Part shown: in pieces, positions 714 to 29,163 of the stretch
Position numbering within the stretch: position 1 is the stretch's first letter
Layout: the number at the start of each line of letters is the position of its first letter
From: an uncultured beta proteobacterium
GTDB taxonomy: Bacteria; Pseudomonadota; Gammaproteobacteria; Burkholderiales; Burkholderiaceae_B
DNA: 36,047 nucleotides
Assembly: GCA_903903735.1 (NCBI GenBank)
Contig: CAIUZV010000374.1
Span: 1 to 36,047, forward strand
Direction: 5' to 3'
Made by a program: the position numbers and the translations under genes
The notes under the pieces: generated by a model
Told to the model about the DNA's origin: nothing
What the model saw: only the letters and a program-made list of their open reading frames with translations
Databases searched by the model: none

Positions 714-792
714 GGTGTTTTGTATACGGGTTAATTTCGCAGGTTAGTATTATCCATTGTTCCTTGCGCAATTCGGGAAGTACACCTACGGC

Positions 793-1692
793 ATGTTCAC
801 CGCGACCACTTCCGCATCATTGAATACGACGCTACGTCCCTGGCAACTGGCTATCGTGATCGCCGTCAAGCGCTCCCTGAAAGCCAACACGATGCAACTT
901 GCATCGAGCCTGGCATTTTCTACAGTTTTCGCAATCGTGCCCCTGCTGGCAGTGATTCTGTCGATTTTTGCGGCCTTGCCTGAGTTTGAAGTATTTAGCT
1001 TAGCGCTACAGGAATATCTCGCGAATAACCTGCTGCCATCCCAGGTATCGAGCAACATCATGGAGTATCTCAATGTCTTTGCCGCGCAGGCAAGTCATCT
1101 AAGCACCATCGGTGGGATATTCTTAGTCGGAACGATCATCGCGCTTGTGATATCGATCGACGATGCGCTCAATACAGTTTGGTGTGTTCAGGAAAAACGC
1201 CATGCTGTACGCCGCTTGTTTGTCTACATCCTGATTATTGTTGTCGGTCCGATCCTGCTTAGCGCCCTACTTTGGACCACCGCGTTCTTGGCCCGTGAAT
1301 CGTTTGGCCATGTCCTGCATCTGCCAGCCCTCCTCGAACTGTCACTAAAGTTGTCGCCTTTTATCGTTAGTGCCATGGGCTTCACGGTGCTATTTGTCGT
1401 TGTGCCGAACACACGAGTTCTTTGGCGCGATGCGCTGTTGGGTGGCCTCGTGGCTGCACTACTTTTATATGTCATGAAATTCGGCTTTGCACTGTACGTC
1501 ACAAGCTTCTCGACTTACACCTTGATTTATGGCGCCTTCGCAGCGATTCCGGTTTTTCTGCTTTGGGTGTACTTTTCATGGCTAAGCGTGCTGCTGGGCG
1601 CTCACGTGGCGGCCAGCCTACCGCTTCTGCGCAAACAAACACTACAATTAGCGGGCAGCACCACGGAGGAAAAAAATGCTACAGGTCAGTGA
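793..1692 (+). CDS. YihY/BrkB family inner membrane protein
   Basis: Polytopic protein with LASSLAFSTVFAIVPLLAVILSIFAALPEF and GGIFLVGTIIALVISIDDALNTVWCV, typical of YihY. The ORF opens at 757; ATG 793 is an alternative start. Confidence 0.88.
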   Translation: MFTATTSASLNTTLRPWQLAIVIAVKRSLKANTMQLASSLAFSTVFAIVPLLAVILSIFAALPEFEVFSLALQEYLANNLLPSQVSSNIMEYLNVFAAQASHLSTIGGIFLVGTIIALVISIDDALNTVWCVQEKRHAVRRLFVYILIIVVGPILLSALLWTTAFLARESFGHVLHLPALLELSLKLSPFIVSAMGFTVLFVVVPNTRVLWRDALLGGLVAALLLYVMKFGFALYVTSFSTYTLIYGAFAAIPVFLLWVYFSWLSVLLGAHVAASLPLLRKQTLQLAGSTTEEKNATGQ

Positions 1693-2137
1693 AATTCTGC
1701 GTGTAAAGGGAAACACCTTATACACCGCATCACCAGAAACCCAAGTCGTACAGGCACTCGAAACCATGAGTGTTCACGACATCGGCTCGCTCGTGATTAT
1801 GGATCAAGGCAAACTTGCTGGCATGCTGACGTTTCGCGAGATCATCCGCCATGTCAACAGCAATCACGGAGCCGTTGGGGCCACGCCGATACGGGCAATT
1901 ATGGAATCTGCGCCTGTTTCAGTCACCCCCGATACCGATGCGAATACCCTTCAACGCCTCATGCTGGATAATCACTGCCGCTATGTCCCCGTGATGGATA
2001 ATGAGGTACTGCTTGGGGTCATCTCTTTTTACGATCTCGCTCAAGCGATCGTTGCAGCTCAGAAGTTTGAGAACTCTATGTTGAAAGCCTACATCCGCGA
2101 CTGGCCTGCTGAAAAAGCAAGCCCAAAGGGCGACTAA
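1676..2137 (+). CDS. CBS-domain-pair protein
   Basis: 153 aa with two CBS repeats (VVQALETMSVHDIGSLVIMDQGKLAGMLTFREIIR / TLQRLMLDNHCRYVPVMDNEVLLGVISFYDLAQAI). Overlaps the 3' end of the YihY gene by 17 bp. Confidence 0.9.
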   Translation: MLQVSEILRVKGNTLYTASPETQVVQALETMSVHDIGSLVIMDQGKLAGMLTFREIIRHVNSNHGAVGATPIRAIMESAPVSVTPDTDANTLQRLMLDNHCRYVPVMDNEVLLGVISFYDLAQAIVAAQKFENSMLKAYIRDWPAEKASPKGD

Positions 2138-3159
2138 GCCGCTCCAACTACCTGGTAGGCTTGCCGAATCAAATCGGCCTTGCTTGCATTGAGTAACGTT
2201 GAATCGGACAGCATTCGCCGCCAAACGCGAGACTTTGGCCTACCATTAAACAAACCTAACAAGGGTCGAACGACCACCCGCAAAGGCACGCCTATGTCGG
2301 TCTGCGATTGTGCGTAGCATGCCAACGCTTCAATAATTGCCTCCTCTGACATCAAGCTATCCTGTGGCCACCAGGCTTGAGCCATTTCCCTCAGCACCAT
2401 CGGGTTGTGCCAGGGCGAGCGGCCAAGCATCACCCCGTCAAAACGTTGGCGTTCCAGTTCACAATCCGCTCTGGACACGAGTCCGCCATTTAGCACCATC
2501 AAAGCGTCCGGAAAATCAATTTTGAGCTGAGCCGCGTGATCGTATCGAAGCGCGGGAACTTCACGATTATCCTTTGGTGTGAGGCCTTTCAACACCGCAT
2601 TGCGTGCGTGAACAATAAATACACGGCAGCCCGTGTCATACAGTGTTCCAACAAAATCTCTGACAAATCCATAACTCTCGTCCCAGTCTAAGCCGAGGCG
2701 ATGTTTGACCGTGACAGGAATGCTCACGGTATCTTGCATTGCCTTGACACAGTCTGCCACCAACATGGGTTCTGCCATCAAGCACGCCCCAAAGGAACCC
2801 TTTTGAACGCGCTCGGAGGGGCAGCCACAGTTCAAGTTGATCTCATCGTATCCCCAGCGTTCGCCCAGCCGAGCGGCAGCCTGAAGGGCGTGGGGTTCAC
2901 TGCCTCCTAATTGCAAAGCAACGGGTTGCTCTTGGGGACTGAAGGCCAAGTGTCGCTCGATATCACCATGTGTGAGTGCGCCCGTCGTAATCATTTCCGT
3001 ATAGACGCGGGCACGCGGAGCAAGCAAGCGATGGAAATATCGACAATGACGGTCCGTGACATCGATCATGGGGGCGACGCACAGCTGCCATCCCAGGGGA
3101 TCAACTGCCCGCACGCCTGACGACGACGTCGCGGGGGCCGGTGTGAACGAAAGCGTCAT
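2134..3159 (-). CDS. dusA: tRNA-dihydrouridine(20/20a) synthase DusA
   Basis: Dus hallmarks: LCVAPMIDVTDRHCRYFHRLL, YTEMITTGAL, LQLGGSEP, NLNCGCPSERVQKGSFGACLM, VKHRLGLD, NGGL. The ORF is open to 3363; a start at 3159 (MTLSFTPAP) avoids overlapping thrB. Confidence 0.92.
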   Translation of the reverse strand: MTLSFTPAPATSSSGVRAVDPLGWQLCVAPMIDVTDRHCRYFHRLLAPRARVYTEMITTGALTHGDIERHLAFSPQEQPVALQLGGSEPHALQAAARLGERWGYDEINLNCGCPSERVQKGSFGACLMAEPMLVADCVKAMQDTVSIPVTVKHRLGLDWDESYGFVRDFVGTLYDTGCRVFIVHARNAVLKGLTPKDNREVPALRYDHAAQLKIDFPDALMVLNGGLVSRADCELERQRFDGVMLGRSPWHNPMVLREMAQAWWPQDSLMSEEAIIEALACYAQSQTDIGVPLRVVVRPLLGLFNGRPKSRVWRRMLSDSTLLNASKADLIRQAYQVVGAA

Positions 3160-3310
3160 AGAAAGCGAGATAAAGAGATGAACAAGGCGAATGGATGGTT
3201 TGCGCATTTTAATTGTCAAACACCGCCGCGTGCACGCATTCATGAGCGGCTTGGTAAAATTACCCACAACAACGCGGTTTAACCTCTTAATCCTTGCATC
3301 ATTCCCGACG

Positions 3311-4288
3311 ATGGCTGTATTTACTCCTGTCAGCGAACCCGACGCGCGCAACTTGCTTCGCAACTATTCGCTGGGTGAATTCGTATCCCTGAAGGGAATC
3401 GCGGCAGGCATCGAGAATAGCAATTATTTTTTGTGCACCACCTCTGCAGAGTATGTCCTGACGATTTTTGAAGTGCTTAAGGCCGAGCAGTTGCCCTTTT
3501 ATATCGAGCTCATGCACCATCTAGCGGAACGAAACATTCCGGTGCCTAAGCCCCAAACAAGACGGGATGGCAGTCGGTTAGCGACGCTGCACAACAAGCC
3601 GGCAGCGATCGTCTCTAAACTTCCGGGTAGCTACATTGTGTCTCCGACCGCCGCGCACTGTGGGTTGACGGGCGCAACACTTGCCCAAGCGCATTTGGCA
3701 GCAGTGGACTTCCCGATTCATCAAAAAAACTTACGTGGGCTGGCTTGGTGGCAAGAGACCGTACCAGTGGTGTTACCGTTTTTAACAGGCTCGGCTCGCG
3801 ATTTGTTGACGACGAGTTTGGCTGAACAAGTGACAAAAGCTCAATCATTGGATTGGCAAGCGCTCCCCAAAGGGCCCTCCCATTGTGATTTGTTTCGAGA
3901 CAACGTGTTGTTTGCGGGAACTCCAGATCGCCCGGTTCTTGGTGGTTTTATTGATTTCTATTTCGCCGGAGTCGACGCCTGGCTGTTTGATGTTGCTGTG
4001 TGTATCAACGATTGGTGCATTGAACATACGACCGGAAGAATTATTCCAGAACTCGCCAGTGCTTGGCTTCAAGCGTATAGTCGCGTGAGGCCGTTCACAG
4101 AACAAGAGCATCGACTATGGCCGACAATGCTACGCGCTGCCGCGCTGCGTTTTTGGATTTCACGACTGTACGATTTTTACCTCCCGCGTCCTGCCCAAAC
4201 GCTTAAACCACACGACCCCACACATTTTGAGCGCATTCTGTCCCAGAGGACGCTTCACCCTATCCAAGCTTTACCCAAGGAATCCTGA
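3311..4288 (+). CDS. thrB: Homoserine kinase, APH-fold type (ThrB)
   Basis: MAVFTPVSEPDARNLLRNYSLGEFVSLKGIAAGIENSNYFLCTT... and HCDLFRDNVLF...GGFIDFYFAG, typical of proteobacterial ThrB type II. Confidence 0.93.
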   Translation: MAVFTPVSEPDARNLLRNYSLGEFVSLKGIAAGIENSNYFLCTTSAEYVLTIFEVLKAEQLPFYIELMHHLAERNIPVPKPQTRRDGSRLATLHNKPAAIVSKLPGSYIVSPTAAHCGLTGATLAQAHLAAVDFPIHQKNLRGLAWWQETVPVVLPFLTGSARDLLTTSLAEQVTKAQSLDWQALPKGPSHCDLFRDNVLFAGTPDRPVLGGFIDFYFAGVDAWLFDVAVCINDWCIEHTTGRIIPELASAWLQAYSRVRPFTEQEHRLWPTMLRAAALRFWISRLYDFYLPRPAQTLKPHDPTHFERILSQRTLHPIQALPKES

Positions 4289-5082
4289 TGCAAGCAGTAT
4301 CTTTACCCGCTCTCTCCGGTTGGCGATGGGTGCGCGATGGCTGGATGCTTTTCCGTAAACAGCCCATGGCGTTTTTCTCTTGGGCAATGTTTGTTAGCTT
4401 GATCCTCATGGTCGCCAGCGTCACGCCACCGATTGGACCGCTCATATTCGTCGTGCTCATGCCAACAGCTACGCTCTTATCGTTGAGTGCCGCGCGTCAC
4501 GCAGAACAAGGACAAAAAGTTTTATTAGGAACATGGATTGCACCGTTACGTCTTGCGGGGGTTTTTCGACGTCTGCTCGGGATGGGCGCGCTGTATGTTC
4601 TGTTTTGCCTATTTCTTGGTCTCATTGCGTTCATGCCCTTCTCTGAAGAAGTCACCCAAGCGGTCAAGGCCGTCACAACCAACAACGACTTATTGCCCTT
4701 GCTTGAAGCAGTACGCACTCCCATGGCGATATTTGCCGTGCTGTATGTCTTAATGGCCGCAGTCTTCTGGTACGCACCAGCCTTGGTGGGGTGGCACTCT
4801 ATCCCAATGACACGTGCGTTGTTCTATAGCGGTATAGCCTGTTGGCGTAACAAATGGGCCTTTGGTATATACGGCCTATCTTGGTTAGTGATCTTCTTGG
4901 CGATTGATACCGTACTTAGCGCGCTGACGATGGTGGGGCTGCCAAAAAGTTTTAGCGCCATGATACAAGTTCCCATTAACGTGGTGGCTAGTGCGGTGCT
5001 GTACTGCAGTTTTTACACGAGCTTTATCTCCGTGTTTTACTCCGAGCCTGCACCCGAGCCAGAGACCACTGCAGCAGAGTAA
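4288..5082 (+). CDS. BPSS1780-family membrane protein
   Basis: 264 aa; MQAVSLPALSGWRWVRDGWMLFRKQPMAFFSW start and several TM helices. TGATG overlap with thrB. Confidence 0.75.
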   Translation: MQAVSLPALSGWRWVRDGWMLFRKQPMAFFSWAMFVSLILMVASVTPPIGPLIFVVLMPTATLLSLSAARHAEQGQKVLLGTWIAPLRLAGVFRRLLGMGALYVLFCLFLGLIAFMPFSEEVTQAVKAVTTNNDLLPLLEAVRTPMAIFAVLYVLMAAVFWYAPALVGWHSIPMTRALFYSGIACWRNKWAFGIYGLSWLVIFLAIDTVLSALTMVGLPKSFSAMIQVPINVVASAVLYCSFYTSFISVFYSEPAPEPETTAAE

Positions 5083-5395
5083 GGTCAACCACGGTTGCAT
5101 TCTGATCCTGCATCCAAGTCATTTCGCAGACTGCACTGGCAGCCCAGCAGGTCACGATGCGGTTCGGCACTACTTTTCGATCAATGCGAACCGCACGGCC
5201 GGCATGATCGACAAAGATGATAGTCAACGCATAGCGCATCCCAAATGTATGCACAGACCGGCAGTTTGGGAAATACATAAGGTGGCCTGGCGGCAGCGGG
5301 CCGCGCAGCAAGAGTCCTCTTGTACGTTTAAAGAAAGTATTCGCAACGTAAATGTGCAGCTGCTGCGCACCAGGAGCGCGAGGCCAAACTGTCAT
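5024..5395 (-). CDS. DUF192 family protein
   Basis: MTVWPRAPGAQQLHIYVANTFFKRTRGLLLRGPLPPGHLMYFPNCRSVHTFGMRYALTIIFVDHAGRAV: DUF192 signature (R..GLL.R..L..G..M.F..C.SVHTFGM...I.....D..G). ATG overlaps the tadC stop (TAATG). Confidence 0.85.
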   Translation of the reverse strand: MTVWPRAPGAQQLHIYVANTFFKRTRGLLLRGPLPPGHLMYFPNCRSVHTFGMRYALTIIFVDHAGRAVRIDRKVVPNRIVTCWAASAVCEMTWMQDQNATVVDLTLLQWSLARVQARSKTRR

Positions 5396-6288
5396 TACAA
5401 ACCCAACAACTGAGCGGCTACGGGGATCGCTAGCACCAGGAAAGTACAAGGGAAAATACACAACGCCATTGGAAACAACATCTTGACCGGTGCTTGCATG
5501 GCGAGCTTTTCAATCCTCAGCAAGCGTTCTCGTCTGTGCTGATCACTCAGCTTCCTCATGATTGATCCGACACTAAAGCCAGACAACTCAGCTTGAGTAA
5601 TGGCGAAGACTAGCTGCCTAATCGATGGCATGTCAGTTCGCATTGCCAACTGCGCCAATGCATGGCCCCGAGGCTGCCCTGAACGTATGTCTAGTAACAC
5701 GCGCGTCCACTCTGCATGCAGGGAGCCGGGTCGACTATATTGAAGCGCCAACTGCAATGAGGCCTGCAAGTTTAAGCCAGACTCTAACCCAAGAACGATC
5801 AAATCCAAGAAAGCTGGCAAGTCTTTCAGGATTGATGACTGCCGCCTGCGTACGTGGCTTCGGAGTAAGGCGTTTGGATAAACATAGCCCACCAGCCCGC
5901 CCACCAAGACTAGCGTGACATTTATCCAACCCCAATCGAACCAGGCGACCAAAGAATGCTGTAGCAGAGCAAGAAACATCCCGACGATGCACGCCACTGC
6001 CACCTTCACGACGTAGAGTTGCCCCACCTGCCACTGCGGATGACCCGCGCGCGCAAGTAGCGTTGTTCCCGCTCGTCGTTGATTCCATGTCACGAGCCAT
6101 AACAACTGATCGCCAGCGCGACGCGTCGACACCCAGAAAACGCGTTCCCAACGCGATCGCGGAATAAAGCCCAGCTCCGCGGCCTTCTTATCATTAAAGA
6201 GCCATCGGAACGATACCGAGATCATCAAATAGCAGGCCACACCGACTGCGAGGGCACCTACCAAGACACTGGCCCAGCGCAACATCAC
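5395..6288 (-). CDS. tadC: Tad pilus inner-membrane platform protein TadC (T2SS F family)
   Basis: T2SSF-type core: LKDLPAFLDLIVLGLESGLNLQASLQLAL...LAMRTDMPSIRQLVFAITQAELSGFSVGSIMRKLSDQHRRERLLRIEKLAMQAPVKMLFPMALCIFPCTFLVLAIPV. Confidence 0.9.
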   Translation of the reverse strand: MMLRWASVLVGALAVGVACYLMISVSFRWLFNDKKAAELGFIPRSRWERVFWVSTRRAGDQLLWLVTWNQRRAGTTLLARAGHPQWQVGQLYVVKVAVACIVGMFLALLQHSLVAWFDWGWINVTLVLVGGLVGYVYPNALLRSHVRRRQSSILKDLPAFLDLIVLGLESGLNLQASLQLALQYSRPGSLHAEWTRVLLDIRSGQPRGHALAQLAMRTDMPSIRQLVFAITQAELSGFSVGSIMRKLSDQHRRERLLRIEKLAMQAPVKMLFPMALCIFPCTFLVLAIPVAAQLLGL

Positions 6289-7133
6289 ACGGATACCTCA
6301 CGCAGGATTGCGCGTAACCAGAGGACCCCCACCACTTCAAGTATCGCAATCAACGCTAAAACAGCCTTGCCCGCGTGCGTCGATAGCGCGAGATACATCA
6401 CACCAGAATCGATCAAACAAAGAACCATCAGCAGAAGAATAGGAAGCACGCCGATGACCAAAGCCTGCATTTTTCCTTGCGTGGTGAGCATGTCGACCTT
6501 TAGCCCAATATGTTGGTGCGCCTCTAGACTGGACGCTAGGCGATCGATTAGCGCCGAAAGGGATCCTCCTGACTCGACGCCCACACGCAACAACGTCGTG
6601 ACCTGGCCCACGCTTTGCGTATCAACCCTTAAACGAAAGTTATTGAGCGCTTCTTGCAGTGGGATGCCAACTCGCTGCTCTCGTAATACGAGGGATAGCT
6701 CCTGGGACAGCGGGGGATGCAGATCTTTCGCAATCGCATGCAAGGCTGAGCTAAAGCTAGCACCCGCAGCGAGCGCGCCGGCAACCATGCGCAGAGCGTC
6801 CGGAAGCTGCCTATCCAAACGGGTCGCTCTGGCATGACGCGCTCTGACTAGTGCAGCGCGTGGAATCGTAAGAAAACCAAACGCCACGAGAACGCTTATT
6901 GCCAGGCTATTACTTAAGAGCCATACAAAGAAACCAACCGAAACGGCCAGCGCAACGAGCACCGGCCAAAGCAGTGTGAGATCAATAAAAACAAACATCT
7001 CTGCTAGCTGTGTCTCTGCCTCCGTATGTAAGGTATCGCGATACTTACACCACGCGCTAGTGAGAATGCGGTGAACCAGCCAAAAGAGCAAGGCGGTCGA
7101 CACCCCTGCGAACGCAATGCCAGCAACCCTCAT
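6285..7133 (-). CDS. tadB: Tad pilus inner-membrane platform protein TadB (T2SS F family)
   Basis: QLPDALRMVAGALAAGASFSSALHAIAKDLHPPLSQELSLVLREQRVGIPLQEALNNFRLRV...VGVESGGSLSALIDRLASSLE. ATG at 7133 overlaps the cpaF stop (ATGA). Confidence 0.9.
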   Translation of the reverse strand: MRVAGIAFAGVSTALLFWLVHRILTSAWCKYRDTLHTEAETQLAEMFVFIDLTLLWPVLVALAVSVGFFVWLLSNSLAISVLVAFGFLTIPRAALVRARHARATRLDRQLPDALRMVAGALAAGASFSSALHAIAKDLHPPLSQELSLVLREQRVGIPLQEALNNFRLRVDTQSVGQVTTLLRVGVESGGSLSALIDRLASSLEAHQHIGLKVDMLTTQGKMQALVIGVLPILLLMVLCLIDSGVMYLALSTHAGKAVLALIAILEVVGVLWLRAILREVSV

Positions 7134-8746
7134 GGGCAAGTAAACCAGTCTTTTATTGCACAATCCACGGACAAGTTCAAGGTATCAAACACCGCTGGCA
7201 TTAAGCCGGTACCGCGCACCTTCCCCAACATTGGATCTGTACGCGCAATAATTTGGGTTTGTATGATTCCGGATTCAACTCCACATACTTCGGCCACAGC
7301 ACACACGATCCGCTGTCCGCTCGGCAACCTCGCCTGTTGAACGATTAACTGAATAGCCGAAGCGACTTGATCGCGTATTGCCGCAAGAGGAAGACCACTT
7401 TGTGCGCTCAAAATTAAGGTTTCTAGCCGCGCTAAGGCGTCCCTTGGGCTGTTAGCGTGCAGTGTCGTTAATGACCCCTCGTGACCGGTATTCATTGCGG
7501 CAAGCATATCAATGGCCTCCGCCCCGCGCACCTCACCAACCACGATACGGTCCGGTCGCATGCGCAAGGCATTTTTGACCAGATCACGGATAGTGATTGC
7601 ACCGCGCCCTTCGGCATTAGCCGGTCTCGCCTCAAGCCTCACGATGTGCGGATGTGCAATCTGCAACTCTGCTGAGTCTTCGATTGTCACAATGCGCTGA
7701 GTAGTGGGAATCTGGCCTGCCAACACATTGAGCAGGGTGGTCTTGCCCGAGCCTGTTCCACCCGACACAAGGATATTGACGCGATGAACGACGCACCAAG
7801 ATAAAAACTTAGCTAAAGGCTCCTCAAGTGTGTTGTTACGTACCAGGTCCTCAAGTGTGGGACGGGTATTTGGAAACTTCCTGATCGTCACACAAGAGCC
7901 GCTTAACGCGATCGGCGCGATGACCGCATTGAGACGAGACCCATCTGGAAGACGCGCGTCCACCATCGGGGACAATTCATCAATCCTTCTTCCCAACGGA
8001 AAGACGATACGCTCGACGATTCCACGCACCGCAATCTCAGAACTAAATTCGGCAGCAGCGCGCGTGAGTCTACCGCCACGTTCAACATAAATCTCGTCAA
8101 AAGCATTAACCATAACCTCCGACACCGTTGGATCGGCAAGCAAAGGCTCTAGAACGCCCAACCCGATGGCCTCCGAAACGACAAGCTCGATAAGCTCTTC
8201 CCTTTCTGCGTCACTGAGGCTCTCGAGCAGCTCAACAGAAACTTGTCGCGCACATGCTCGCGCATAGTCGCGAAGTCCAGTTGTCGTCAATGCAGCGATA
8301 TCCGTGCGCCTTAAATCCAGCACCTTAATCAGACCCAGATGAAGCGACTTACGGATCTCGCGACGAAATCTACCTGATTCAGGCTCAATCAACCGCACAG
8401 ACTCAAAGGAGTCATCGCACAGCGAATGTAGAGCGATGTCCTGAGCAGCTCGATCGATTTGAGAGGTCGTGAAATGGATCAAGCATGGTCCGACAATGAC
8501 TTCATCGGTTGCCTGCACCGGACCATAACGAATAATACGTTGACCGTTCACCCTAGTACCCGATAATGATCCCAAGTCCTCGACATGGCAACCGGCATCG
8601 TCCTCTCGAACCCGCACATGCGTCTTTGCCACACGCCAATGTTGAATGCGCAAAGCGCAATCCGCTGAACGTCCAATCAAAAACGGGGTGTCCAGACAAA
8701 GCTTCTCTTTTTGACCGTCCTCATACGTCAACATGATATTGATCAT
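7130..8746 (-). CDS. cpaF: Tad secretion ATPase CpaF/TadA with an N-terminal FHA domain
   Basis: C-terminal ATPase with Walker A (NILVSGGTGSGKTTLLNVLAGQIP), RIVTIEDSAELQI, MRPDRIVVGEVRGAEAIDMLAAMNTGHEGSLTTLHAN. N-terminus has an FHA pattern: FLIGRSADCALRIQHWRVAKTHVRV...VEDLGSLSGTRVNGQRI. Probable start is ATG 8746; the ORF is open to 8893. Confidence 0.93.
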   Translation of the reverse strand: MINIMLTYEDGQKEKLCLDTPFLIGRSADCALRIQHWRVAKTHVRVREDDAGCHVEDLGSLSGTRVNGQRIIRYGPVQATDEVIVGPCLIHFTTSQIDRAAQDIALHSLCDDSFESVRLIEPESGRFRREIRKSLHLGLIKVLDLRRTDIAALTTTGLRDYARACARQVSVELLESLSDAEREELIELVVSEAIGLGVLEPLLADPTVSEVMVNAFDEIYVERGGRLTRAAAEFSSEIAVRGIVERIVFPLGRRIDELSPMVDARLPDGSRLNAVIAPIALSGSCVTIRKFPNTRPTLEDLVRNNTLEEPLAKFLSWCVVHRVNILVSGGTGSGKTTLLNVLAGQIPTTQRIVTIEDSAELQIAHPHIVRLEARPANAEGRGAITIRDLVKNALRMRPDRIVVGEVRGAEAIDMLAAMNTGHEGSLTTLHANSPRDALARLETLILSAQSGLPLAAIRDQVASAIQLIVQQARLPSGQRIVCAVAEVCGVESGIIQTQIIARTDPMLGKVRGTGLMPAVFDTLNLSVDCAIKDWFTCP

Positions 8747-8750
8747 GCCC

Positions 8751-10037
8751 TTACTCCCATTGATTCGGTAACTCCAATTCGTGCCCTTCGGGAAGTCCTT
8801 GGTCCCACTGTCCATCAAACATATTTTTCTGATCTGAATTAACTTCTCGACTGATGGCGTGATTGAGGCGTAAAGGCTCGGGGAAGCTGTCACTCAAGAG
8901 CGTACTGGCACTCGACGCTCGTTGCGCAAGGTCTGCGTGTTTGGCATCAACCACTATCGGAGTGACGAAGATAGCGAGCTCTGTCTGACTTCTATGCACA
9001 CGATTCGTTCCAAACAAGTGCCCAAGAACAGGTAGCTCGGACAAAGCAGGCAACCCTTCAGTGTCATGGGACTGCTCACGTGAAATGAATCCGCCAAGAA
9101 CCAACGTTTGCCCTGAGCGAACATTAAAATCAGTGGATGCACGTCTCACCTTTAGAGCTGGCCCGGCAGCGCTCGCGAGACTGTGATCGACGGTACTGAC
9201 TTCAATCTCAATTTTTGATCGCACTCCAAGATTTCTCCCGACGTGGGGCGTAATGTTTAGGTGCACACCGTATTTCTTAAAGGTCGTATGTGCCCGGCCA
9301 TCCTTATCTTGCGTCGTATAGGGAACCTCCCCGCCTGCAGAAAAACTAGCGGTGGAGCCGCTACGTGCAAGAAGCTGCGGCTGAGCAAGCACAATTGCCT
9401 CGCCAGTCTTAGAAAGCGCTACAAGCCTCGCGGAAACAAGTGCCGTCAGTGCAAAGCGGGAGGACTGCATCCCAAGTGATGCATTAGTGTCCCAACGCAC
9501 ACCAAGCTCACGCATCCGTGCTGTGGGGATCTCAATGACCTGGACATCCAGCATCACCATCCGATCCCAGCCGGACTCGTTTCCGTATTCAATCAACTCT
9601 GGATACCGTGCGGCCAAGCGACTGATTGTCGACCGATCGCTCTCTGTCAGATCATCACCATCAATTAAAACTCGACCCGCAATAGTGGTCGTGCGAGCAC
9701 CGGGAATTCGACGTAGAATTTCCGCGACCTCTTTCATTGCACGGCTATGCCCTTCTTGTTTAACATGCACTCGGTACGTTAAATGTGCTGTCTTAGAAGT
9801 CCAAACTGTGACAGTAGTTGTCCCAGGTCTTTTTCCAAATAAGATGGCTTCAGTGGGACTTAGCGCAGTCGCTTGCACGACCTGCCCATTGCCAACGGCC
9901 AAGCGCTGAATGCTCGGATGACGCACCACAAACGATGATCCGACCTCGATCTCTAGCGCCCGATCCTTCTCTGCAAACGCAGGCCCGATGAGCAACCAAA
10001 GTACAAGTCCCAGAAAGAAGCCTCGCCCACGGCTCAT
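8751..10037 (-). CDS. cpaC: Tad pilus outer-membrane secretin CpaC/RcpA
   Basis: Signal peptide MSRGRGFFLGLVLWLLIGPAFAE, BON/N0-like N-terminus, and a secretin core with GGEVPYTTQ...YGVHLNITPHV...LVLGGFISREQSHDTEGLPALSELPVLGHLFGTNRVHRSQTELAIFVTPIVV. Confidence 0.93.
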   Translation of the reverse strand: MSRGRGFFLGLVLWLLIGPAFAEKDRALEIEVGSSFVVRHPSIQRLAVGNGQVVQATALSPTEAILFGKRPGTTTVTVWTSKTAHLTYRVHVKQEGHSRAMKEVAEILRRIPGARTTTIAGRVLIDGDDLTESDRSTISRLAARYPELIEYGNESGWDRMVMLDVQVIEIPTARMRELGVRWDTNASLGMQSSRFALTALVSARLVALSKTGEAIVLAQPQLLARSGSTASFSAGGEVPYTTQDKDGRAHTTFKKYGVHLNITPHVGRNLGVRSKIEIEVSTVDHSLASAAGPALKVRRASTDFNVRSGQTLVLGGFISREQSHDTEGLPALSELPVLGHLFGTNRVHRSQTELAIFVTPIVVDAKHADLAQRASSASTLLSDSFPEPLRLNHAISREVNSDQKNMFDGQWDQGLPEGHELELPNQWE

Positions 10038-10903
10038 CGACGCTTTTCCGACACTTCAGCAGCACCTGCAACAGAGTACTGATAACCATTCTCTGGCGCA
10101 TCAGCAATGCCCTCTAGTCGATCACCATAGATTACCGCTGCGGTGTCGACAGACCCCGTTCGCACCAGGCCGAGCATTTCCTCGAGATTGATGGCAATGG
10201 ACTCAGACAACCTCTGGGGAGTATCTGCATATCGTGCGCTCATCACCGCACTGATAACGCCGCTCTGTCGAGCGGCAACCAGTCGAATCGAGTCTGCGGG
10301 CGACACGGCCACCGTCATCGTGGAATATCCATTCTCTAACGCGCCCTCACGCCCGTTGACTTCTCTGGTGTGCTGGTCTGTTGCTAAAACCTCTATAGCC
10401 CCCAGTAATAACGCCGTTACACGCTTGCCTTCATGATCAACGGATACGAATAGATCAACGCGATCACCAGGCTTTAGTAAGCCCGACATCGCATTGACAG
10501 GATCGACTGGTAGAGTGACAGCGCGCAAAGCTGGATCTAGACGATCAGATAGTGTCGGTACAGCGGGGTCAGCCAACGTACTACCGAGCAACCAGCCCCC
10601 GGCTCGGAGATCTGTCGTCAAACGCTTGCCCACAACAGAATCAATCTCATGCGAATACAACACATCCTGTGCGATGCCATTCGCTTGAAAAGCGCGCTCG
10701 TGTAAATCATCAGCGCGTATGACGCTGTCGCGCTTAAGATCCCTAGAGGCCACCAAGAGATGCACATACTCCACGTTATTGCGATGCTCTAGCTCCGTGG
10801 TTTTATTCGATAAATAAGTGTTGATCGTCGCAGCTGAGCAGCAACCAAGGGCGATCGACACACCCAACACCAGCCATTTCCTTTGACGTTCATTGATGTT
10901 CAC
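10034..10903 (-). CDS. cpaB: Flp pilus assembly protein CpaB/RcpC
   Basis: N-terminal TM followed by an SAF-like domain (LLVASRDLKRDSVIRADDLHERAF...VVGKRLTTDLRAGGWLLGSTLA) and AVTLPVDPVNAMSGLLKPGDRVDLFVSV. GTG start at 10903 is preceded by GGGGGAT; the ORF is open to 10924. Confidence 0.88.
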   Translation of the reverse strand: MNINERQRKWLVLGVSIALGCCSAATINTYLSNKTTELEHRNNVEYVHLLVASRDLKRDSVIRADDLHERAFQANGIAQDVLYSHEIDSVVGKRLTTDLRAGGWLLGSTLADPAVPTLSDRLDPALRAVTLPVDPVNAMSGLLKPGDRVDLFVSVDHEGKRVTALLLGAIEVLATDQHTREVNGREGALENGYSTMTVAVSPADSIRLVAARQSGVISAVMSARYADTPQRLSESIAINLEEMLGLVRTGSVDTAAVIYGDRLEGIADAPENGYQYSVAGAAEVSEKRR

Positions 10904-10913
10904 ACATATCCCC

Positions 10914-11630
10914 CTACTGCCCATTCAAAAACAGAATCGAACTTCCTTGCACAGCAAATATCGTTAAATTGAGTTGAACCCCCTCCTTTGTGGCAAACAT
11001 CGACCGCTCTGCTGTAAGTGAGCCCCTAGGCGCCCTTGCCATTGCAAGGCTCCAGCCAGCTTTGCTAAGTGCGACAGAAATTGAAGCGACTAAGCGAGCG
11101 GATGGAAGCCAGCTTGAAAAGATGAAGGTGTAGCTAGGATCGGCTCGCGCATGATCAACAGTCGAGAGCACAACCCGTAGTTCCATCGCCGGATTGATCC
11201 AGGCGGTCATCGCTCGGGGCGCGCTATCCAAATGCTTGCACGAGAACGGTTGGGGAACCAAGACAGACTGATCAGGGCTAGACAGTGTCGAATAAATACC
11301 CTCGACTCTGTCCTCAGATACGGACCATAACCCGATCAAGTGATGTTGCGGCGCATTGGACCAACGCGCTAGAAAAAAATCGTGTTGAACGTCACCAACC
11401 GAGCCTAAAGGTATGATGCCTGCCACCTTACTGATCGCCCGCTCAATATTCAACTGTCCTTGCAGACGATAGGCACGCGCGTAGAACCCCTGAATGCACA
11501 CGCGATCGATCACGGGCTGATGCTGCAGTTCAGGCGCAAAGGACTGGAGAACGTCGGTGGCATTGCTTGCATGGGCAACGCCGATTAGCGACACGGCGAT
11601 TGAACTTAACAAAAGAAGTTGTTTGATCAT
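10914..11630 (-). CDS. Secreted protein of unknown function encoded inside the Tad locus
   Basis: MIKQLLLLSSIAVSLIGVAHASNA signal peptide; no family recognised; tightly packed between cpaB and the tadE-like gene. Confidence 0.75.
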   Translation of the reverse strand: MIKQLLLLSSIAVSLIGVAHASNATDVLQSFAPELQHQPVIDRVCIQGFYARAYRLQGQLNIERAISKVAGIIPLGSVGDVQHDFFLARWSNAPQHHLIGLWSVSEDRVEGIYSTLSSPDQSVLVPQPFSCKHLDSAPRAMTAWINPAMELRVVLSTVDHARADPSYTFIFSSWLPSARLVASISVALSKAGWSLAMARAPRGSLTAERSMFATKEGVQLNLTIFAVQGSSILFLNGQ

Positions 11631-11634
11631 TTGG

Positions 11635-12210
11635 TTATCGGACCGAGTTTCGTGGAGCCAAATCTCCCCAGGCACCGAGCCAATCGAGTTGTGGTCTCGG
11701 GCGCCGCCAAACCGCATCAATATGTTGAGTGCGAGTCATTACCTGGGCTGCCAGTCGCCGACTTTGCTGTGCGGAACGATGCCAAAATGTAGTTGAGTTG
11801 CCAATCTGCACATGTATCGACTGGCGTGAGCGTGATCTTCCGTCACCGGTGTACAAGTAACTATGCCGTTTCACTGCTGTAGCGATCGTTGGGCCAAGAT
11901 AAAACTGACCGAAGGAGGTCGCCGGCAGGCGTCGCAGGTCAGTTGCTCGAAGAAACCTTCCTGAACCAGACCCCAAAAGCTCGTTTTCTGTATCGCGCCG
12001 ATGATGTGGACCAGCAATTGGAGTTTCAGCAACTCTTGCATCGGTTGGGCCAATGAAGACTGCGAGTGTACTTTCCTGCAGTGCGAGCAACGTTAACTGA
12101 CGCAGCGTTACCGTAAAGTGAAGACCAAACAAAAGAGCAATAAGCGCTCCCAGTAAAAGCAGGGACTCAACGAAACCTTGCCCAACCTGGGCCGTGTCAC
12201 GGGGCGTCAT
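11635..12210 (-). CDS. tadE: TadE-like pseudopilin
   Basis: N-terminal prepilin-like motif VGQGFVESLLLLGALIALLFGLHFTVTLRQL (G|xxxxE with hydrophobic helix); 191 aa; position in the Tad operon. Confidence 0.72.
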   Translation of the reverse strand: MTPRDTAQVGQGFVESLLLLGALIALLFGLHFTVTLRQLTLLALQESTLAVFIGPTDARVAETPIAGPHHRRDTENELLGSGSGRFLRATDLRRLPATSFGQFYLGPTIATAVKRHSYLYTGDGRSRSRQSIHVQIGNSTTFWHRSAQQSRRLAAQVMTRTQHIDAVWRRPRPQLDWLGAWGDLAPRNSVR

Positions 12211-13616
12211 TGGGTGCCTCGGACGGGGTGAGATTCAAGTGAACGCACCGCTGGCACCCGAATCAAACGCGCAAGCCAGAAGGGCTTGAAGAGGCTGGGT
12301 GCCTCCGCTCGTCGGTTCTTGCCCACTAAAGGATCTGAAAAGTAAGTCTCTGCAGCAGAGGTTGAGCTCAGGCTCGGATAGTCAAGCCAACGCTGCACAA
12401 CCTGAATCACAAACTGAGCTGAGGCGCTGTCCCTCGCGGGGTTTAGACGCGTGTATCGCGCTTGTTGGCGAGCTCGCCACACCACAGGCGCTTGATTTGC
12501 CCAACGTTCGGCTAACGGATTGCGCGTTCCGCCAAATATATTCCAACCGGACCATGCACGTTCCGCCGCCCACTTCCAAAACGGCTTTCCTTGAAACGTT
12601 TGCATTGGCTCATCAAGCGAGCCTTCTACGTGGGATCCATTAGAACGCGTTTCAATCGTTGCCCAGCCCATTGGGTACTCTCGGTAGTAGCACCCAATGA
12701 ACCGATTAAAGCGGACATTATGGAACGATTGATTTTCATCAATACTCCAGACGCCATCGCGTGCGAGCGTCAACGTCCCACGACGCCTTAACTGATGTTG
12801 CCGCCAAGGACATCTCAGATTGATGCCATTAAAGCTTCGTGCAACGGACTTCCTGTCATCAAGATACCGATACCGCGCTCGAACATCTTGCAACATCCCA
12901 AACCACTCATCGTCGGTGGTTGGACGATTGACCATGAATTTCGTCGTACCGTCATTCAAGAGACGATATTGAACTCCCAGAGCCTCAAGCGAACTGCCTC
13001 GATTGGCTGAGCCACTGTGACCGAGGTTCATCACAAGGGTGTTGTTCAATACCTGATGGATCTCAGACGAAGTATCCATTCTCGACTCGCGAACTTGGTT
13101 AAGCACTGCGTGTATCAGTTGTTCGTGTTGTTCGAATGCGTTGCCCAGTGCATTTCGCAGAAGTGTGTCACTCAGTCCACCAACGCGTGACGACAGGTAC
13201 GCGCCGCCGTGATGTGTACCAAAACGAAAACTCAGCAAAGATGCCGGCGGATTGCGGGCTGTGGCTTGTCTCGCAAGTCTCGAACGAAAGCGCTCAGCGG
13301 CGGCCATTGAGAAGAGATGTAGTTGCGCGACCTGATGCGCGAGTTGGGTTCGATTCAAATAAGCATGCAGGTTAAGATTGCGAGCGTAAATGAGCGCGGC
13401 ACTATAGGCAGCTGCATCGGTTGCACGATGCAGGGATGACTTGTTATGCACCCAGCTACCGACCTTGAGCATCAACAGCCACGCACCGACACAAAGCGCC
13501 AAGAGCCCAATGCCGAGCAGAAGCGCCTGCCCGGATTGCGTACTTGGGCTGTTGCGCCGTGAACGTCGTGCTGAAGCGATCGAGCGCACAGGCTTGCGAT
13601 CAGTCTGCACGATCAA
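12207..13616 (-). CDS. TadG-like pilus assembly protein
   Basis: N-terminal SGQALLLGIGLLALCVGAWLLMLKVGSWVHNKSSLHRATDAAAYSAALIYARNLNLHAYLNRTQLAHQVAQLH (TadG/TadE-like N-terminal helix followed by DAAAYSAA); 469 aa; ATGA overlap with tadE. Confidence 0.75.
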   Translation of the reverse strand: MIVQTDRKPVRSIASARRSRRNSPSTQSGQALLLGIGLLALCVGAWLLMLKVGSWVHNKSSLHRATDAAAYSAALIYARNLNLHAYLNRTQLAHQVAQLHLFSMAAAERFRSRLARQATARNPPASLLSFRFGTHHGGAYLSSRVGGLSDTLLRNALGNAFEQHEQLIHAVLNQVRESRMDTSSEIHQVLNNTLVMNLGHSGSANRGSSLEALGVQYRLLNDGTTKFMVNRPTTDDEWFGMLQDVRARYRYLDDRKSVARSFNGINLRCPWRQHQLRRRGTLTLARDGVWSIDENQSFHNVRFNRFIGCYYREYPMGWATIETRSNGSHVEGSLDEPMQTFQGKPFWKWAAERAWSGWNIFGGTRNPLAERWANQAPVVWRARQQARYTRLNPARDSASAQFVIQVVQRWLDYPSLSSTSAAETYFSDPLVGKNRRAEAPSLFKPFWLARLIRVPAVRSLESHPVRGTQ

Positions 13617-13637
13617 TTTGCATGATTAATCGCAAGA

Positions 13638-13937
13638 CTATCGACTGCTTTTGTCAGCGTTTCCCGTAAAGTCGTTCAGAGATTTTCGCTTGGCCTCAGC
13701 CTTCGCAGCCTGTGCTGCCGCTTTGGCGACTCGTGTCTCTTGCGTACCGTCTTCGCCCGCGAGCTCTTTTGCAATCGCGGCTGTTTGAGCACGCAGTACC
13801 TGCCCAAAGTATTGATACGTTGCGATCGCTGCCACGGCAACTAGCGCGACAACGATAATGTACTCGGTCATACCCTGACCGCGCTGCGAGCGACGGTTAA
13901 CGGTCTGACGCGTACTAGGCTGAAAGATTGAACTCAT
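13638..13937 (-). CDS. flp: Flp-family major pilin
   Basis: RRSQRGQGMTEYIIVVALVAVAAIATYQYFGQVLRAQ: class IVb prepilin motif G|QGMTEY plus hydrophobic helix. First gene of the Tad cluster. Confidence 0.88.
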   Translation of the reverse strand: MSSIFQPSTRQTVNRRSQRGQGMTEYIIVVALVAVAAIATYQYFGQVLRAQTAAIAKELAGEDGTQETRVAKAAAQAAKAEAKRKSLNDFTGNADKSSR

Positions 13938-14032
13938 CACAACTCCACCACTAAGCTTAAGGAGTGGTGAGTGTGAATGAACAGATGTTACGGCTCAATA
14001 CGCAAAGTACCGCATGGCTAGTTTGATCAAAT

Positions 14033-15163
14033 CTACCAGCCGTAAAAGCGACTCCAGGTCTTGACATCCCCATGCCTATCCACAGCTTGATATTCAGGAA
14101 ACTGCGCACCGGTCGCACAAGCATGATTGGGCAGAATACGAAGCTGCGTGCCGACTGGGAAACGCGTGACGATGTTTAAGTCCGGACTACCCACACGCGA
14201 GATAATCCCGTGCTCTTGATTCGCCCCGGAAATAACGTAGCCAGGAATAACATTTCCTGCTGCCTCGCAGACCTGACCATAACCGTAATCCGTGACTTGC
14301 TTTTGAGTGCCCCGGTCTCGGCTCATGGCCATCCACCCCGCATCAACAATCGCCCATCCTTTTTCTTCTTGATGGCCAATCACCGTTGTGAGCACGCTTA
14401 ACGCGATATCGTCGAGCTGACAAACGCCAACATTGCGCATCACAAGGTCAAAAAACACATACACACCCGCCCTCACCTCGGTCACACCGTCGAGACCTGT
14501 CGCAGCCAAGGCTGTCGGCGTCGAGCCTACGCTCACAACTGGGCAGGAGAACCCCGCTGCGCGCAGACGCTGCCCAGCATGCACGCAACCAAAGCGCTCT
14601 TGCTCCGCCATTTGAACTAAGGCCTCCGGCGTATTGAGGTCATAACTCGATCCCGCATGGGTCATGACGCCTTGAATCACCATCCCTGCGTCTGCAAGAA
14701 CCTTAGCAACATCCAGCAAACTTGCCGCATCAGGCTTGATGCCAGAGCGATGGTCATCTGTATCGATTTCAATCAACACTTTAAAGACGATGCCACGAGC
14801 TTGGGCAAAATTGGCAATTGCCTGAGCACTCGCCACACTGTCGGTCAGGATCTTTAAATCACAACCTTTTTCTTGTAGTGCCGCTGCTTGCGGCAACTTA
14901 TTCGCTGCGATACCGACCGCATACAGAATATCGCGAATGCCTGAGTCAAAGAACTGCTCCGCCTCTTTGAGCGTTGACACAGTGATTCCTTTCGCACCTG
15001 CCTGAACCTGTGCGTCAGTGACCTCGACACACTTCGACGTCTTGACATGCGGACGAAACGCTACGCCAAGACGATTAGTTTGTGCCTGCATACGATTAAT
15101 GTTTTGTGTCATGCGGGCGACATCGATCAATGCGACAGGAGTGATCAGGTCAGTCAGTTTCAT
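14033..15163 (-). CDS. DSD1-family PLP-dependent enzyme (D-threonine aldolase / D-serine dehydratase-like, alanine racemase N-terminal fold)
   Basis: TPVALIDVARMTQNINRMQAQTNRLGVAFRPHVKTSKCVEVTDAQVQAGAKGITVSTLKEAEQFFDSGIRDILYAV...; C-terminal EHGIISR...LRILPNHACAT (H and C of the DSD1 metal site). Confidence 0.88.
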   Translation of the reverse strand: MKLTDLITPVALIDVARMTQNINRMQAQTNRLGVAFRPHVKTSKCVEVTDAQVQAGAKGITVSTLKEAEQFFDSGIRDILYAVGIAANKLPQAAALQEKGCDLKILTDSVASAQAIANFAQARGIVFKVLIEIDTDDHRSGIKPDAASLLDVAKVLADAGMVIQGVMTHAGSSYDLNTPEALVQMAEQERFGCVHAGQRLRAAGFSCPVVSVGSTPTALAATGLDGVTEVRAGVYVFFDLVMRNVGVCQLDDIALSVLTTVIGHQEEKGWAIVDAGWMAMSRDRGTQKQVTDYGYGQVCEAAGNVIPGYVISGANQEHGIISRVGSPDLNIVTRFPVGTQLRILPNHACATGAQFPEYQAVDRHGDVKTWSRFYGW

Positions 15164-25789: not shown

Positions 25790-26596
25790 CTAGCGAAGGG
25801 ATTCCAACTGCCGCAACAATTTTGGGAATTGCGCATCGACTACATCCAAACGAATCGCGCTCATCCGAGGGTTGCCCAAATTGAGGCAAATAATAATCGC
25901 GGCAAGAACTACAAATAGGAACAACACGGTTAACCCCACCTGCTGCCCCTTTTCAATCCCCGTCTTATAACCGCAAATGGCTGAAATGATCATCAAGAGC
26001 ACGATTAGCGCTTGCCAAAGGATGCGCGGCGTTTGCATAAAAATAGATGCGAACTGTTGATCAAAACTCGAGTTCATTATCTGAACTCGAGTAAGAAAAG
26101 AATTAAATATGATGCGATCATCACCGACATATTTCGGAAGCAATGCATAGGCGTGTCGCAAAAGCTGCAGCCCTGCCTCTTTCTGAGCACGCCCACGTTC
26201 CTCTATCCCGAGGGTCCGTATCGGTCTGTCGTAAAAATGTTTTCGTCGCTCAACGTACTCGGCTAACAACTTTAAAACGTCTTGCCTGTCGTCTGCCCTA
26301 AGCATTTTCGTTGAATCCATAACCGCTGCGATACTTAAGATCTCATCGACGGTAAGCTTGCGTTGGGTCTCGTAGTTGTTCGTTGATCCAGATAACTGGA
26401 ACGCAACCAGGATCGCAAAGAAACCAAAAATCGACGTAATGAAAATACTACTAACCTCAACCGTCTCTTTGTTGATTGTGCGCCTTACCCGCGCGCCATA
26501 CAGCCAACTCAAGCCGAACACGATCACTACGGCGACCGATAAGCCGACGTAGAGCCAACCAGACTGCAACAGCAAGATGTTTGTTTCGTGAGTCAT
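25790..26596 (-). CDS. DUF4239-like (bestrophin-like domain) membrane protein
   Basis: 268 aa; two N-terminal TM helices with a VSSIFITSIFGFFAILVAFQLSGSTNNYETQRKLTVDEILSIAAV pattern, two C-terminal TM helices, no other recognised domain. Confidence 0.65.
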   Translation of the reverse strand: MTHETNILLLQSGWLYVGLSVAVVIVFGLSWLYGARVRRTINKETVEVSSIFITSIFGFFAILVAFQLSGSTNNYETQRKLTVDEILSIAAVMDSTKMLRADDRQDVLKLLAEYVERRKHFYDRPIRTLGIEERGRAQKEAGLQLLRHAYALLPKYVGDDRIIFNSFLTRVQIMNSSFDQQFASIFMQTPRILWQALIVLLMIISAICGYKTGIEKGQQVGLTVLFLFVVLAAIIICLNLGNPRMSAIRLDVVDAQFPKLLRQLESLR

Positions 26597-26640: not shown

Positions 26641-26652
26641 TCATTCCCACTC
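26641..26652 (-). repeat. att-like distal copy of the guaA 3' end (TCATTCCCACTC)
   Basis: 12-bp exact direct repeat of 27523-27534. Minus strand reads ACT ATT GAG TGG GAA TGA = TIEWE-stop, as at the end of guaA. Confidence 0.75.
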
Positions 26653-26713
26653 AATAGTTACTCGGTTAAAAAACATATATAAATCATATAGTTACAGTCA
26701 CCAAAACGAGTGC

Positions 26714-26733
26714 GTGTAACTTTTGTGTAACTT
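26714..26733 (+). repeat. Paired GTGTAACTT motif (left)
   Basis: GTGTAACTTTTGTGTAACTT; similar pair at 27404-27424. Confidence 0.6.
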
Positions 26734-26862
26734 GGCTGAGTTGGGACTGTTTTTAACAAAGCAAAATCCTATTCGTTTTCAACGCTTAATTTTAAAGCTG
26801 TTACACAGGTTGCGGAACTTAAACCAATCATAAATCATCAGAAATTAAACTTTAAAGTTATT

Positions 26863-27300
26863 CTATTTTCCTCTAGCATAACGTTTCAAACGCATAGCCA
26901 AAGTCCCACTGTGTAGCTCAAATAGATGACTATCAAAGTCATAAAAGTAAACTGAATAACCTTCACCTTCGACTCTGGGTCTGGGTGGCTTCTTTTCTAA
27001 TTTCATTTCATCAATTAAAAGTTCTTTTTTTATAATTTCATCTTCATGAATAGCAAAAGCAATATGATGGTAATCACGTTCTAACTTTGGATTGCCTTTC
27101 ATAGCAACCAACCATAAGTTTTCTGTCTCATCGACACTATTTTGATTGCCAATTAAGTAAAAACGCTCTTCAGATAATGAGAACTGTTCTGCACCACTAT
27201 CGTAAACTTTTCTCGCGTCTAAAACGCTTATTAATATTTCTTCCAACCTATTAAGATCGCTACTAATTAAAGTTATGTGACTTAATCCATTCACAGTCAT
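26863..27300 (-). CDS. fosX: FosX-like fosfomycin resistance hydrolase (VOC/glyoxalase fold)
   Basis: MTVNGLSHITLISSDLNRLEEILISVLDARKVYDSGAEQFSLSEERFYLIG...HHIAFAIHEDE...PPRPRVEGEGYSVYFYDFDSHLFELHSGTLAMRLKRYARGK: FosX-type pattern with metal-ligand His/His/Glu positions. ATG 27300 chosen over the longer ORF. Confidence 0.85.
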   Translation of the reverse strand: MTVNGLSHITLISSDLNRLEEILISVLDARKVYDSGAEQFSLSEERFYLIGNQNSVDETENLWLVAMKGNPKLERDYHHIAFAIHEDEIIKKELLIDEMKLEKKPPRPRVEGEGYSVYFYDFDSHLFELHSGTLAMRLKRYARGK

Positions 27301-27403
27301 ACAACATCTCTCACTAAGTGCATTTTGAAAAAATAGAATAGAGTAGTTTTTTTCATACAGTCCTCCGAAATAAGTAACTATGATTTCGAATAGTGTCACC
27401 AAT

Positions 27404-27424
27404 GTGTAAGTTTATGTGTAACTT
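27404..27424 (+). repeat. Paired GTGTAA(C/G)TT motif (right)
   Basis: GTGTAAGTTTATGTGTAACTT; counterpart of 26714-26733. Confidence 0.6.
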
Positions 27425-27522
27425 AAAATTCTCATACTCAATAAAATCCATGACTTAGTGATTTATCAGATTGACACTCAAAAATCAAAAGTCTTTACCA
27501 ATCAATCACTTAAAAATTCCCG

Positions 27523-29115
27523 TCATTCCCACTCGATTGTCGCGGGTGGTTTGCTCGAAACGTCGTACACAACTCGGTTGATGCCTCGGACTTCGTTGAT
27601 GATTCGCGATGAAACCTTTGCGAGTAATGGATAAGGTATTGGCGCCCAGTCAGCAGTCATGAAGTCTGAAGTTTGCACCGCACGCAAGGCGACTACATAT
27701 TCATAGGTGCGTCCGTCACCCATCACACCGACAGATTTCACGGGCAAGAAGACTGCAAATGCCTGTGAGGTTAAGTCATACCAACTTTGCTTGGTCTCTG
27801 GGTCAATCGTCTTACGTAATTCTTCAATAAAAATAGCGTCTGCGCGACGCAGCAGATCTGCGAATTCGCTATTGACCGCGCCCAGAATCCGTACACCCAG
27901 CCCTGGCCCAGGGAACGGATGACGGTAAACCATACCGTGCGGTAACCCAAGTGCCAGACCGAGCTTTCGGACTTCATCCTTAAACAATTCACGCAGCGGT
28001 TCAAGAAGCTTGAGATTAAGTGTCTCTGGCAAGCCACCAACGTTATGGTGCGATTTAATCGCAACGGCTTTTCCGGTTTTAGCGCCGGCGGACTCGATGA
28101 CATCCGGATAAATAGTGCCCTGCGCCAACCACTTTGCTGCCTTCAGTTGGCTGGCCTGATGTTGAAATACCTCTACAAACTCACGACCAATGATCTTGCG
28201 TTTGGCTTCAGGATCCGTCACACCGGCAAGCTTGCCCATAAACTGCTCAGTGGCATCGACGTGGATGATCTTCACGCCCATATTTTGAGCGAACGTCTCC
28301 ATTACCTGTTTGCCTTCGTCTAAGCGAAGCAGGCCGTGATCCACAAACACGCAGGTCAAACGGTCGCCAATTGCACGATGAATCAATGCGGCGGCGACCG
28401 ATGAATCCACCCCGCCAGATAAGCCGAGGATCACTTCGTCCTGCCCAACTTGCTCGCGTATACGCGCGATGGCCTCGTCGACGTAGTTCGGCATCGTCCA
28501 ATCGCCTGTACAAGCGCAAATGTCATTCACAAAACGATTCAATAAAGCCTGTCCCTGGATCGTATGTGTCACCTCAGGGTGAAACTGCACAGCGTAAAAA
28601 CGTCTCGCTTCATCTGCCATCCCTGCGATGGGACACGAATCCGTTGACGCCATGACTTTAAAGCCGTCCGGTAATTTGGTGACTTGATCGCCATGACTCA
28701 TCCAGACCTTGAGCATGCCATGGCCTTCGGCGGTGACGAAGTCCTGAATATCTTTTAACAAAGAGGTATGACCACGCGCCCGGACCTCGGCGTAACCAAA
28801 CTCTCGATGATCGGCGTGACTCACTGTGCCACCCAGTTGCTGAGCCATTGCTTGCATCCCATAGCAGATGCCAAGCACGGGAACACCCAACGAAAACACC
28901 GTCTCAGGCACCTTGAGCGAATCTTCGTCATAGGCTGAGCCGTGACTGCCCGAGAGAATGATTCCCTTGAGGCCTAAGCCAAGCTGTTTCTGCAGAAAAT
29001 CGGCCGAAACATCGCCGGGATGAAGTTCACAATACACACCCGCTTCGCGTACGCGACGCGCGATTAACTGCGTCACTTGTGAACCGTAATCAAGAATAAG
29101 AATGCGCTGGTGCAT
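27523..29115 (-). CDS. guaA: GMP synthase (glutamine-hydrolysing)
   Basis: [114 protein letters not shown]-terminus. Confidence 0.98.
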
Positions 29116-29141
29116 GCGAGTCAAGCCTGTCTGAATGAAAG

Positions 29142-29163
29142 ACACCGGCTAGTGAGCCGGTGC
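29142..29163 (-). other. Stem-loop in the guaB-guaA intergenic region
   Basis: Perfect 8-bp stem CACCGGCT/AGCCGGTG with 4-nt loop AGTG, between the guaB stop and guaA start. The U-tract on the transcribed strand is poor, so a full terminator is not supported. Confidence 0.5.

Follow-up and report, generated by a model that had tools for sequence, protein, structure and literature searches.

A single-gene segment behind guaA

The window, meaning the whole 36,047-nucleotide stretch of DNA that was analysed, carries a segment of ∼0.88 to 0.9 kb (26645-27534) between guaA and a bestrophin-like gene, bounded by two direct repeats of GAGTGGGA that are 882 bp apart. The features of the locus are as follows.

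27523..29145 (-): guaA (GMP synthase), an ORF whose 3' end is the integration site; the GAGTGGGA core lies in the codons for the C-terminus ...KPPATIEWE*
27527..27534 (-): proximal core (attL) GAGTGGGA, within the guaA 3' end; same core as in GIsul2 (PMC9376610)
27371..27534 (-): left arm, ∼165 bp; 87% identical to the G446 mini-element across 173 bp, core included
27393..27424 (-): putative integrase arm-binding repeats AAGTTACACATAAACTTACACATTGGTGACAC, proposed from their repetition and their conservation beside the island integrase gene
27297..27356 (-): 19-aa leader ORF MKKTTLFYFFKMHLVRDVV, with GGAGG upstream and a stop codon overlapping the fosX start as ATGA
26863..27300 (-): fosX-type gene, 145 aa, predicted Mn-dependent fosfomycin epoxide hydrolase (ORF, profile and structure matches, alignment, tree)
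26645..26822 (-): right arm, ∼180 bp; identical at 88% to G446, 81% to G604 and, over 166 bp, 94% to the G383 island
26714..26731 (-): arm-type repeat pair GTTACACAAAAGTTACAC, conserved in 13 right ends
26645..26652 (-): distal core (attR) GAGTGGGA, inside the conserved GTAACTATTGAGTGGGA, from comparison of ends
25790..26596 (-): bestrophin-like gene (PF14023), a chromosomal neighbour that directly follows guaA in the congener G011

The fosX-type ORF starts with ATG at 27300 and runs for 145 aa plus stop. Within the segment, no other ORF on that strand reaches 50 aa, and no integrase, other recombinase or transfer gene is present in these 0.88 kb, which hold fosX and the 19-aa leader only. The first-pass annotation, made from the sequence alone, had described a FosX-like gene as the sole cargo of a guaA-adjacent segment; the ORF is real, all of the motifs it quoted are present, and the segment proves to have exact ends. 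The GAGTGGGA pair by itself is without significance, as at least two copies occur in 16 of 100 shuffles of the window; it is meaningful because one copy belongs to the guaA 3' end and homology with a second genome (see below) ends at the other. GTTACAC-type repeats are found in both arms, and the GTTACACAAAAGTTACAC pair occurs once in the window, with 0.04 occurrences expected at up to three mismatches. Single-strand folding of the right end is weak and unremarkable (z −1.7).

The base composition of the segment sets it apart, with 32.8% GC (34.2% for the fosX-type ORF) versus 53.5% for the remaining window, and a GC3 of 0.27 for the ORF versus 0.55 to 0.61 for guaA, guaB, and the downstream gene. 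This agrees with the AT-rich contrast reported in the first-pass annotation, and the low-GC donor that it proposed is plausible, with both gene and arms being AT-rich. The gene lies downstream of guaA and is co-directional with it. A promoter scan upstream of fosX gave fewer sites than in shuffles and none that stood out, so read-through from guaA is possible, and the 19-aa leader, which has a good ribosome-binding site, may couple fosX translation.

The cargo protein is FosX-type

The protein, of the VOC superfamily, matches the NCBIfam FosX/FosE/FosI model (NF000222) over its full length (E 8.5e-49), but its 165.1 bits are ∼5 short of the curated equivalog cut-off of 170, which is an annotation threshold; we therefore refer to it as FosX-type and not as a certified equivalog. 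Solved FosX structures from Listeria and Mesorhizobium match at about 1e-37, and the similarity to FosX far exceeds what chance would explain. Apart from the copy described below, the nearest identities are 45 to 55%, to FosX/FosE/FosI proteins. In a tree of 18 proteins, which had no FosB rows, it groups with the FosX/FosE/FosI-type rows and apart from the FosA/FosM-type (support 94/95), and no close named relative is present among the 18. In the alignment, H8, E45, H79, and E128 correspond to H7, E44, H69, and E118 of Listeria FosX, of which we take H7, H69, and E118 to be the His/His/Glu metal ligands and E44 the general-base glutamate. The motif PPRPRVEGEG...YFYD..LFELHSGTL is also retained, and a 9-residue insertion after LIG (NQNSVDETE) is absent from the other FosX-type rows. 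Phylogeny and residues thus both bear out the first-pass FosX assignment.

FosX is a Mn-dependent hydrolase in which an essential glutamate acts as the general base (PMC4790336), and the cargo product is most likely a Mn-dependent epoxide hydrolase that opens fosfomycin; hydrolysis of fosfomycin is likely because the catalytic residues are kept and the protein falls with FosX/FosE/FosI. Alternatively, it could be an enzyme of the VOC family acting on another epoxide or phosphonate, as might be suggested by a score below the equivalog cut-off, a best identity of only 55%, and an insertion that is unique in the aligned set. Set against retention of the metal ligands, the catalytic glutamate, and the PPRPRVEGEG...LFELHSGTL motif, and against the grouping in the tree, we consider this unlikely; it would in any event be compatible with the explanation that we favor for the carrier.

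A near-identical copy in a second family

A search of genome contigs recovered the gene at 99% identity in Polynucleobacter meluiroseus (L004), where it is likewise directly behind guaA. Both hosts of fosX appear to be metagenome assemblies, as is stated for P. meluiroseus. From core to core the two elements differ by four mismatches in 890 bp (99.55% identity), whereas the nucleotide identities of guaA and guaB are 68% and 67%, respectively. Identity starts no more than 14 bp from the proximal core and is lost at the distal one, beyond which the downstream DNA is unrelated; in P. meluiroseus the contig itself ends only about 70 bp from the distal junction. The congener G011 provides an empty site, in which the same neighbor genes follow guaA directly (guaA, bestrophin, hydrolase), and by eye the DNA to the right of the P. 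meluiroseus element resembles the post-guaA DNA of three insert-free genomes (G007, G025, and G030).

The simplest reading of these comparisons is that one integrase-less unit inserted site-specifically in two families, and that the fosX segment is a recently moved mini-element. The mobility raised in the first-pass annotation is thus strongly supported, as a member of another family carries the complete 0.88-kb segment at the identical location. Spread of chromosomal DNA across the guaA region by homologous recombination, following transformation or transduction, would also place the gene at the same locus in both genomes, and guaA is conserved. We regard this as very improbable: with guaA at 68% identity and the downstream DNA unrelated, the near-identity nonetheless begins within 14 bp of one core and ends exactly at the other, and the same arms at the same site hold different cargo.

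Related elements at guaA in other Burkholderiales

We searched whole genomes with a right-end pattern consisting of the arm repeat pair, a spacer, and the core. Within the order, 5 of 399 genomes have a match, as do 6 of 186 in the G067 genus (among them G461, with a match position agreeing with the P. meluiroseus element) and 1 of 16 in the G286 genus. The window's family yielded 4 of 269, all four of them in the window's genus, and among 369 genomes drawn from the class only the window's own genome matched. A reversed control pattern gave no matches in any of the genome sets searched (order, genera, family, and class).

Elements at guaA were classed as integrase-less where both ends are seen and no intact integrase is present. 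The G446 mini-element (∼1.8 kb) has a cargo of an FkbM methyltransferase (PF05050) between arms that are both 87 to 88% identical to those of the window, and the G286 element (∼1.4 kb) codes, in the opposite orientation, for a 304-aa protein that is FkbM-like by eye (no Pfam match above the cut-off). The G014 element (∼2 kb) encodes a 403-aa protein, acyltransferase-like by eye, together with residues 1 to 86 of an integrase, and the G015 element (∼1.5 kb; 1.46 kb) retains integrase residues 1 to 200 between intact ends. In G604, a right end with 81% identity follows genes for a carbamoyltransferase and a GDSL hydrolase; the 3.5-kb contig lacks the other end.

Several further arrangements were seen. 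In G014 (L097, reverse complement 438-2470) a second, degraded left arm follows right after the distal core, a tandem accretion. In G027 (C257:3209-4640; L102) a fatty-acid-desaturase-like gene has guaA on one side and a second copy of the guaA 3' end on the other; the start of the bestrophin-like gene is also duplicated, and GTTACAC arms are absent, which points to a different kind of event. In G526 (C12; L039/L043) the right-end signature and its core are found 6.5 kb downstream of guaA, at which no left arm can be recognized; the intervening genes look chromosomal. Short matches to parts of the right arm are found in G297, G1216, and G1234.

Comparison of the ends places the window cassette in a wider group, made up of cassettes and islands that target guaA and whose ends match. 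A broader proposal, to which we give somewhat less than even weight, is that these constitute a non-integron cassette system circulating among Burkholderiales families, in which integrase-free units of ∼0.9 to 2 kb with conserved arms would use the universal guaA 3' end as a landing site and borrow an island integrase. Interchangeable cargo in such a system would include fosX, FkbM-type methyltransferases, an acyltransferase, and perhaps a carbamoyltransferase. A tie of the whole set to freshwater bacteria, suggested by Polynucleobacter alone, is only a suspicion.

guaA islands and a candidate helper integrase

Larger islands with window-type end motifs are present in G067 (15.9 kb), G494 (8.1 kb), and G020 (13.4 kb), each with a tyrosine integrase of ∼400 to 420 aa directly behind guaA (PF00589 for that of G067). 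For G028, G383, and G008, the left end and the start of the integrase are seen; the G383 island, whose right arm shares 94% identity with that of the window across 166 bp, has its two ends on separate contigs. In the islands, the GTTACAC-type repeats lie a short distance upstream of the integrase gene and, at the opposite end, close to the core, and we infer that they are arm-type integrase binding sites.

Other features of the islands vary. The G020 island (L098, reverse complement 513-15058) carries type I restriction-modification-like genes, followed by the distal core; another partial guaA 3' end comes next, bearing a further GAGTGGGA 1.2 kb on; tandem arrangements at guaA are seen in G014 and G020 only. 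A second, short (∼195 to 220 aa) tyrosine-recombinase-like ORF is present at L023:4296-4883, at L031:1-600, and in the G494 island. The G067 island (L023:6047-13364) has, by eye, large helicase-like, methyltransferase-like, and restriction-subunit-like genes, and its cargo is probably concerned with restriction or phage defense. In G043 (C12; L024:180-1108) the island integrase is in two overlapping frames and is apparently broken.

A search for the island integrase detected no homologue in the window genome G000 (∼80% complete), G446, G461, or G604, so that in its present location the element may be unable to move; the same search leaves no resident integrase in the window genome as a candidate enzyme. 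Nor does a plasmid collection contain a close homologue of the island integrase. For this reason the GIsul2 integrase was set aside as the cognate enzyme, and GIsul2 is a precedent in target and logic, with no claim of membership. Other origins and vehicles were also rejected. The boundaries are GAGTGGGA at guaA and not attC, in disagreement with an integron cassette. Viral contigs lack matches to the end pattern or the protein, and matches in a phage collection are Listeria records with FosX at 50% only. The element is on no plasmid record, and the sole DNA match there is 80 bp of Listeria fosX.

Cis-mobilizable elements (CIMEs) are described as decayed ICEs or IMEs that are mobilized in cis by accretion (PMC5704250), and one explanation is that the window element is a dead CIME, left behind when a complete guaA island lost the integrase in situ and no longer able to move. 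Decay does occur at this site, as illustrated by the truncated integrases between intact ends in G015 and G014, and the fosX hosts are without a detected island integrase homologue (given the ∼80% completeness of the window genome). However, the integrase-less form itself is common to two families with only four mismatches, which argues that movement came after integrase loss, and the left arm that the fosX element has in common with G446 is unlike its counterpart in the integrase-bearing islands and is without an integrase remnant. We therefore consider a dead remnant improbable.

The explanation that we favor, with considerable confidence, is that 26645-27534 is a minimal non-autonomous, CIME-like integrative cassette that is mobilized in trans by guaA-specific island integrases and has a fosX-type gene as cargo. 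The cassette would consist of two att arms with the guaA-end core and one cargo gene, its own recombinase being absent, and the helper would be a tyrosine integrase of the kind in the larger guaA islands of related bacteria, supplied in trans and binding the GTTACAC-type arm repeats. The circularized cassette, with the predicted junction GTAACTATTGAGTGGGAATGACGGG, would recombine with the last guaA codons at GAGTGGGA; insertion would restore those codons, the stop, and the reading frame, with the cassette then lying immediately after guaA and co-oriented with it. The sequence and comparative evidence for this cassette is strong. Its exact ends, the repeated core, the copy in another family, and the empty site in a congener are observed directly, as are homologous ends around varied cargo and integrase islands with matching end motifs; we infer excision, integration, and recombination in trans, as well as a vehicle between cells, expression, and fosfomycin hydrolysis.

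Comparison with known systems

Studies that trace resistance and surface-modification genes normally look to plasmids, transposons, integrons, and large islands, and integrase-based island finders are blind to integrase-less units such as these. GIsul2 and CIMEs are known; new here is a precisely bounded integrase-less cassette that is one of a wider guaA set, a sub-kilobase unit without a mobility gene that has crossed families at a site found in nearly all bacteria. The small att sites and the integrases of this system are experimentally tractable.

Integron cassettes, including those of fosE and fosI, whose products are clinical relatives of the window cargo, are likewise ∼1-kb single-gene units moved by a tyrosine recombinase. 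The window element differs in its GAGTGGGA ends, GTTACAC arm repeats, guaA 3' target, and lack of an array; attC-type (GTTRRRY) boundaries in an array behind attI are not found. The FosX proteins of Listeria monocytogenes and Mesorhizobium loti share ∼50% identity and the same catalytic residues with the window protein, which differs in its 9-aa insertion after LIG and in riding on a mobile mini-element. Tycheposons, found in streamlined aquatic bacteria, are also tyrosine-recombinase islands whose cargo varies, but they target tRNA genes and span 4 to 200 kb (PMC10872708).

CIMEs resemble the window element in being att-flanked and in lacking recombination and transfer genes, and they form tandem relics at a single site (PMC5704250), as is seen here at G014 and G020. 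The window element has GAGTGGGA at both ends, as attL and attR, with G011 as the empty site, and integration and transfer genes are absent; its arms are island-related and decay intermediates exist (G014 and G015), with no integrase remnant in the window element itself. It thus fits a CIME-like structure, albeit an unusually small one, and differs in that a form with one gene and conserved arms is found again in separate families, its cargo exchanged.

The closest parallel is with GIsul2, which targets the guaA 3' end with a GAGTGGGA core, and whose integrase was shown in E. coli to excise and integrate the integrase-less CR2-sul2 between att sites (PMC9376610). Target, core, and an integrase-less att-flanked unit (CR2-sul2) are held in common, whereas GIsul2 is ∼15 kb with its own integrase and the window element is 0.88 kb with one gene and no integrase ORF. 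A FosX-type gene is thereby tied to guaA-targeted mobility, in parallel with sul2 in GIsul2.
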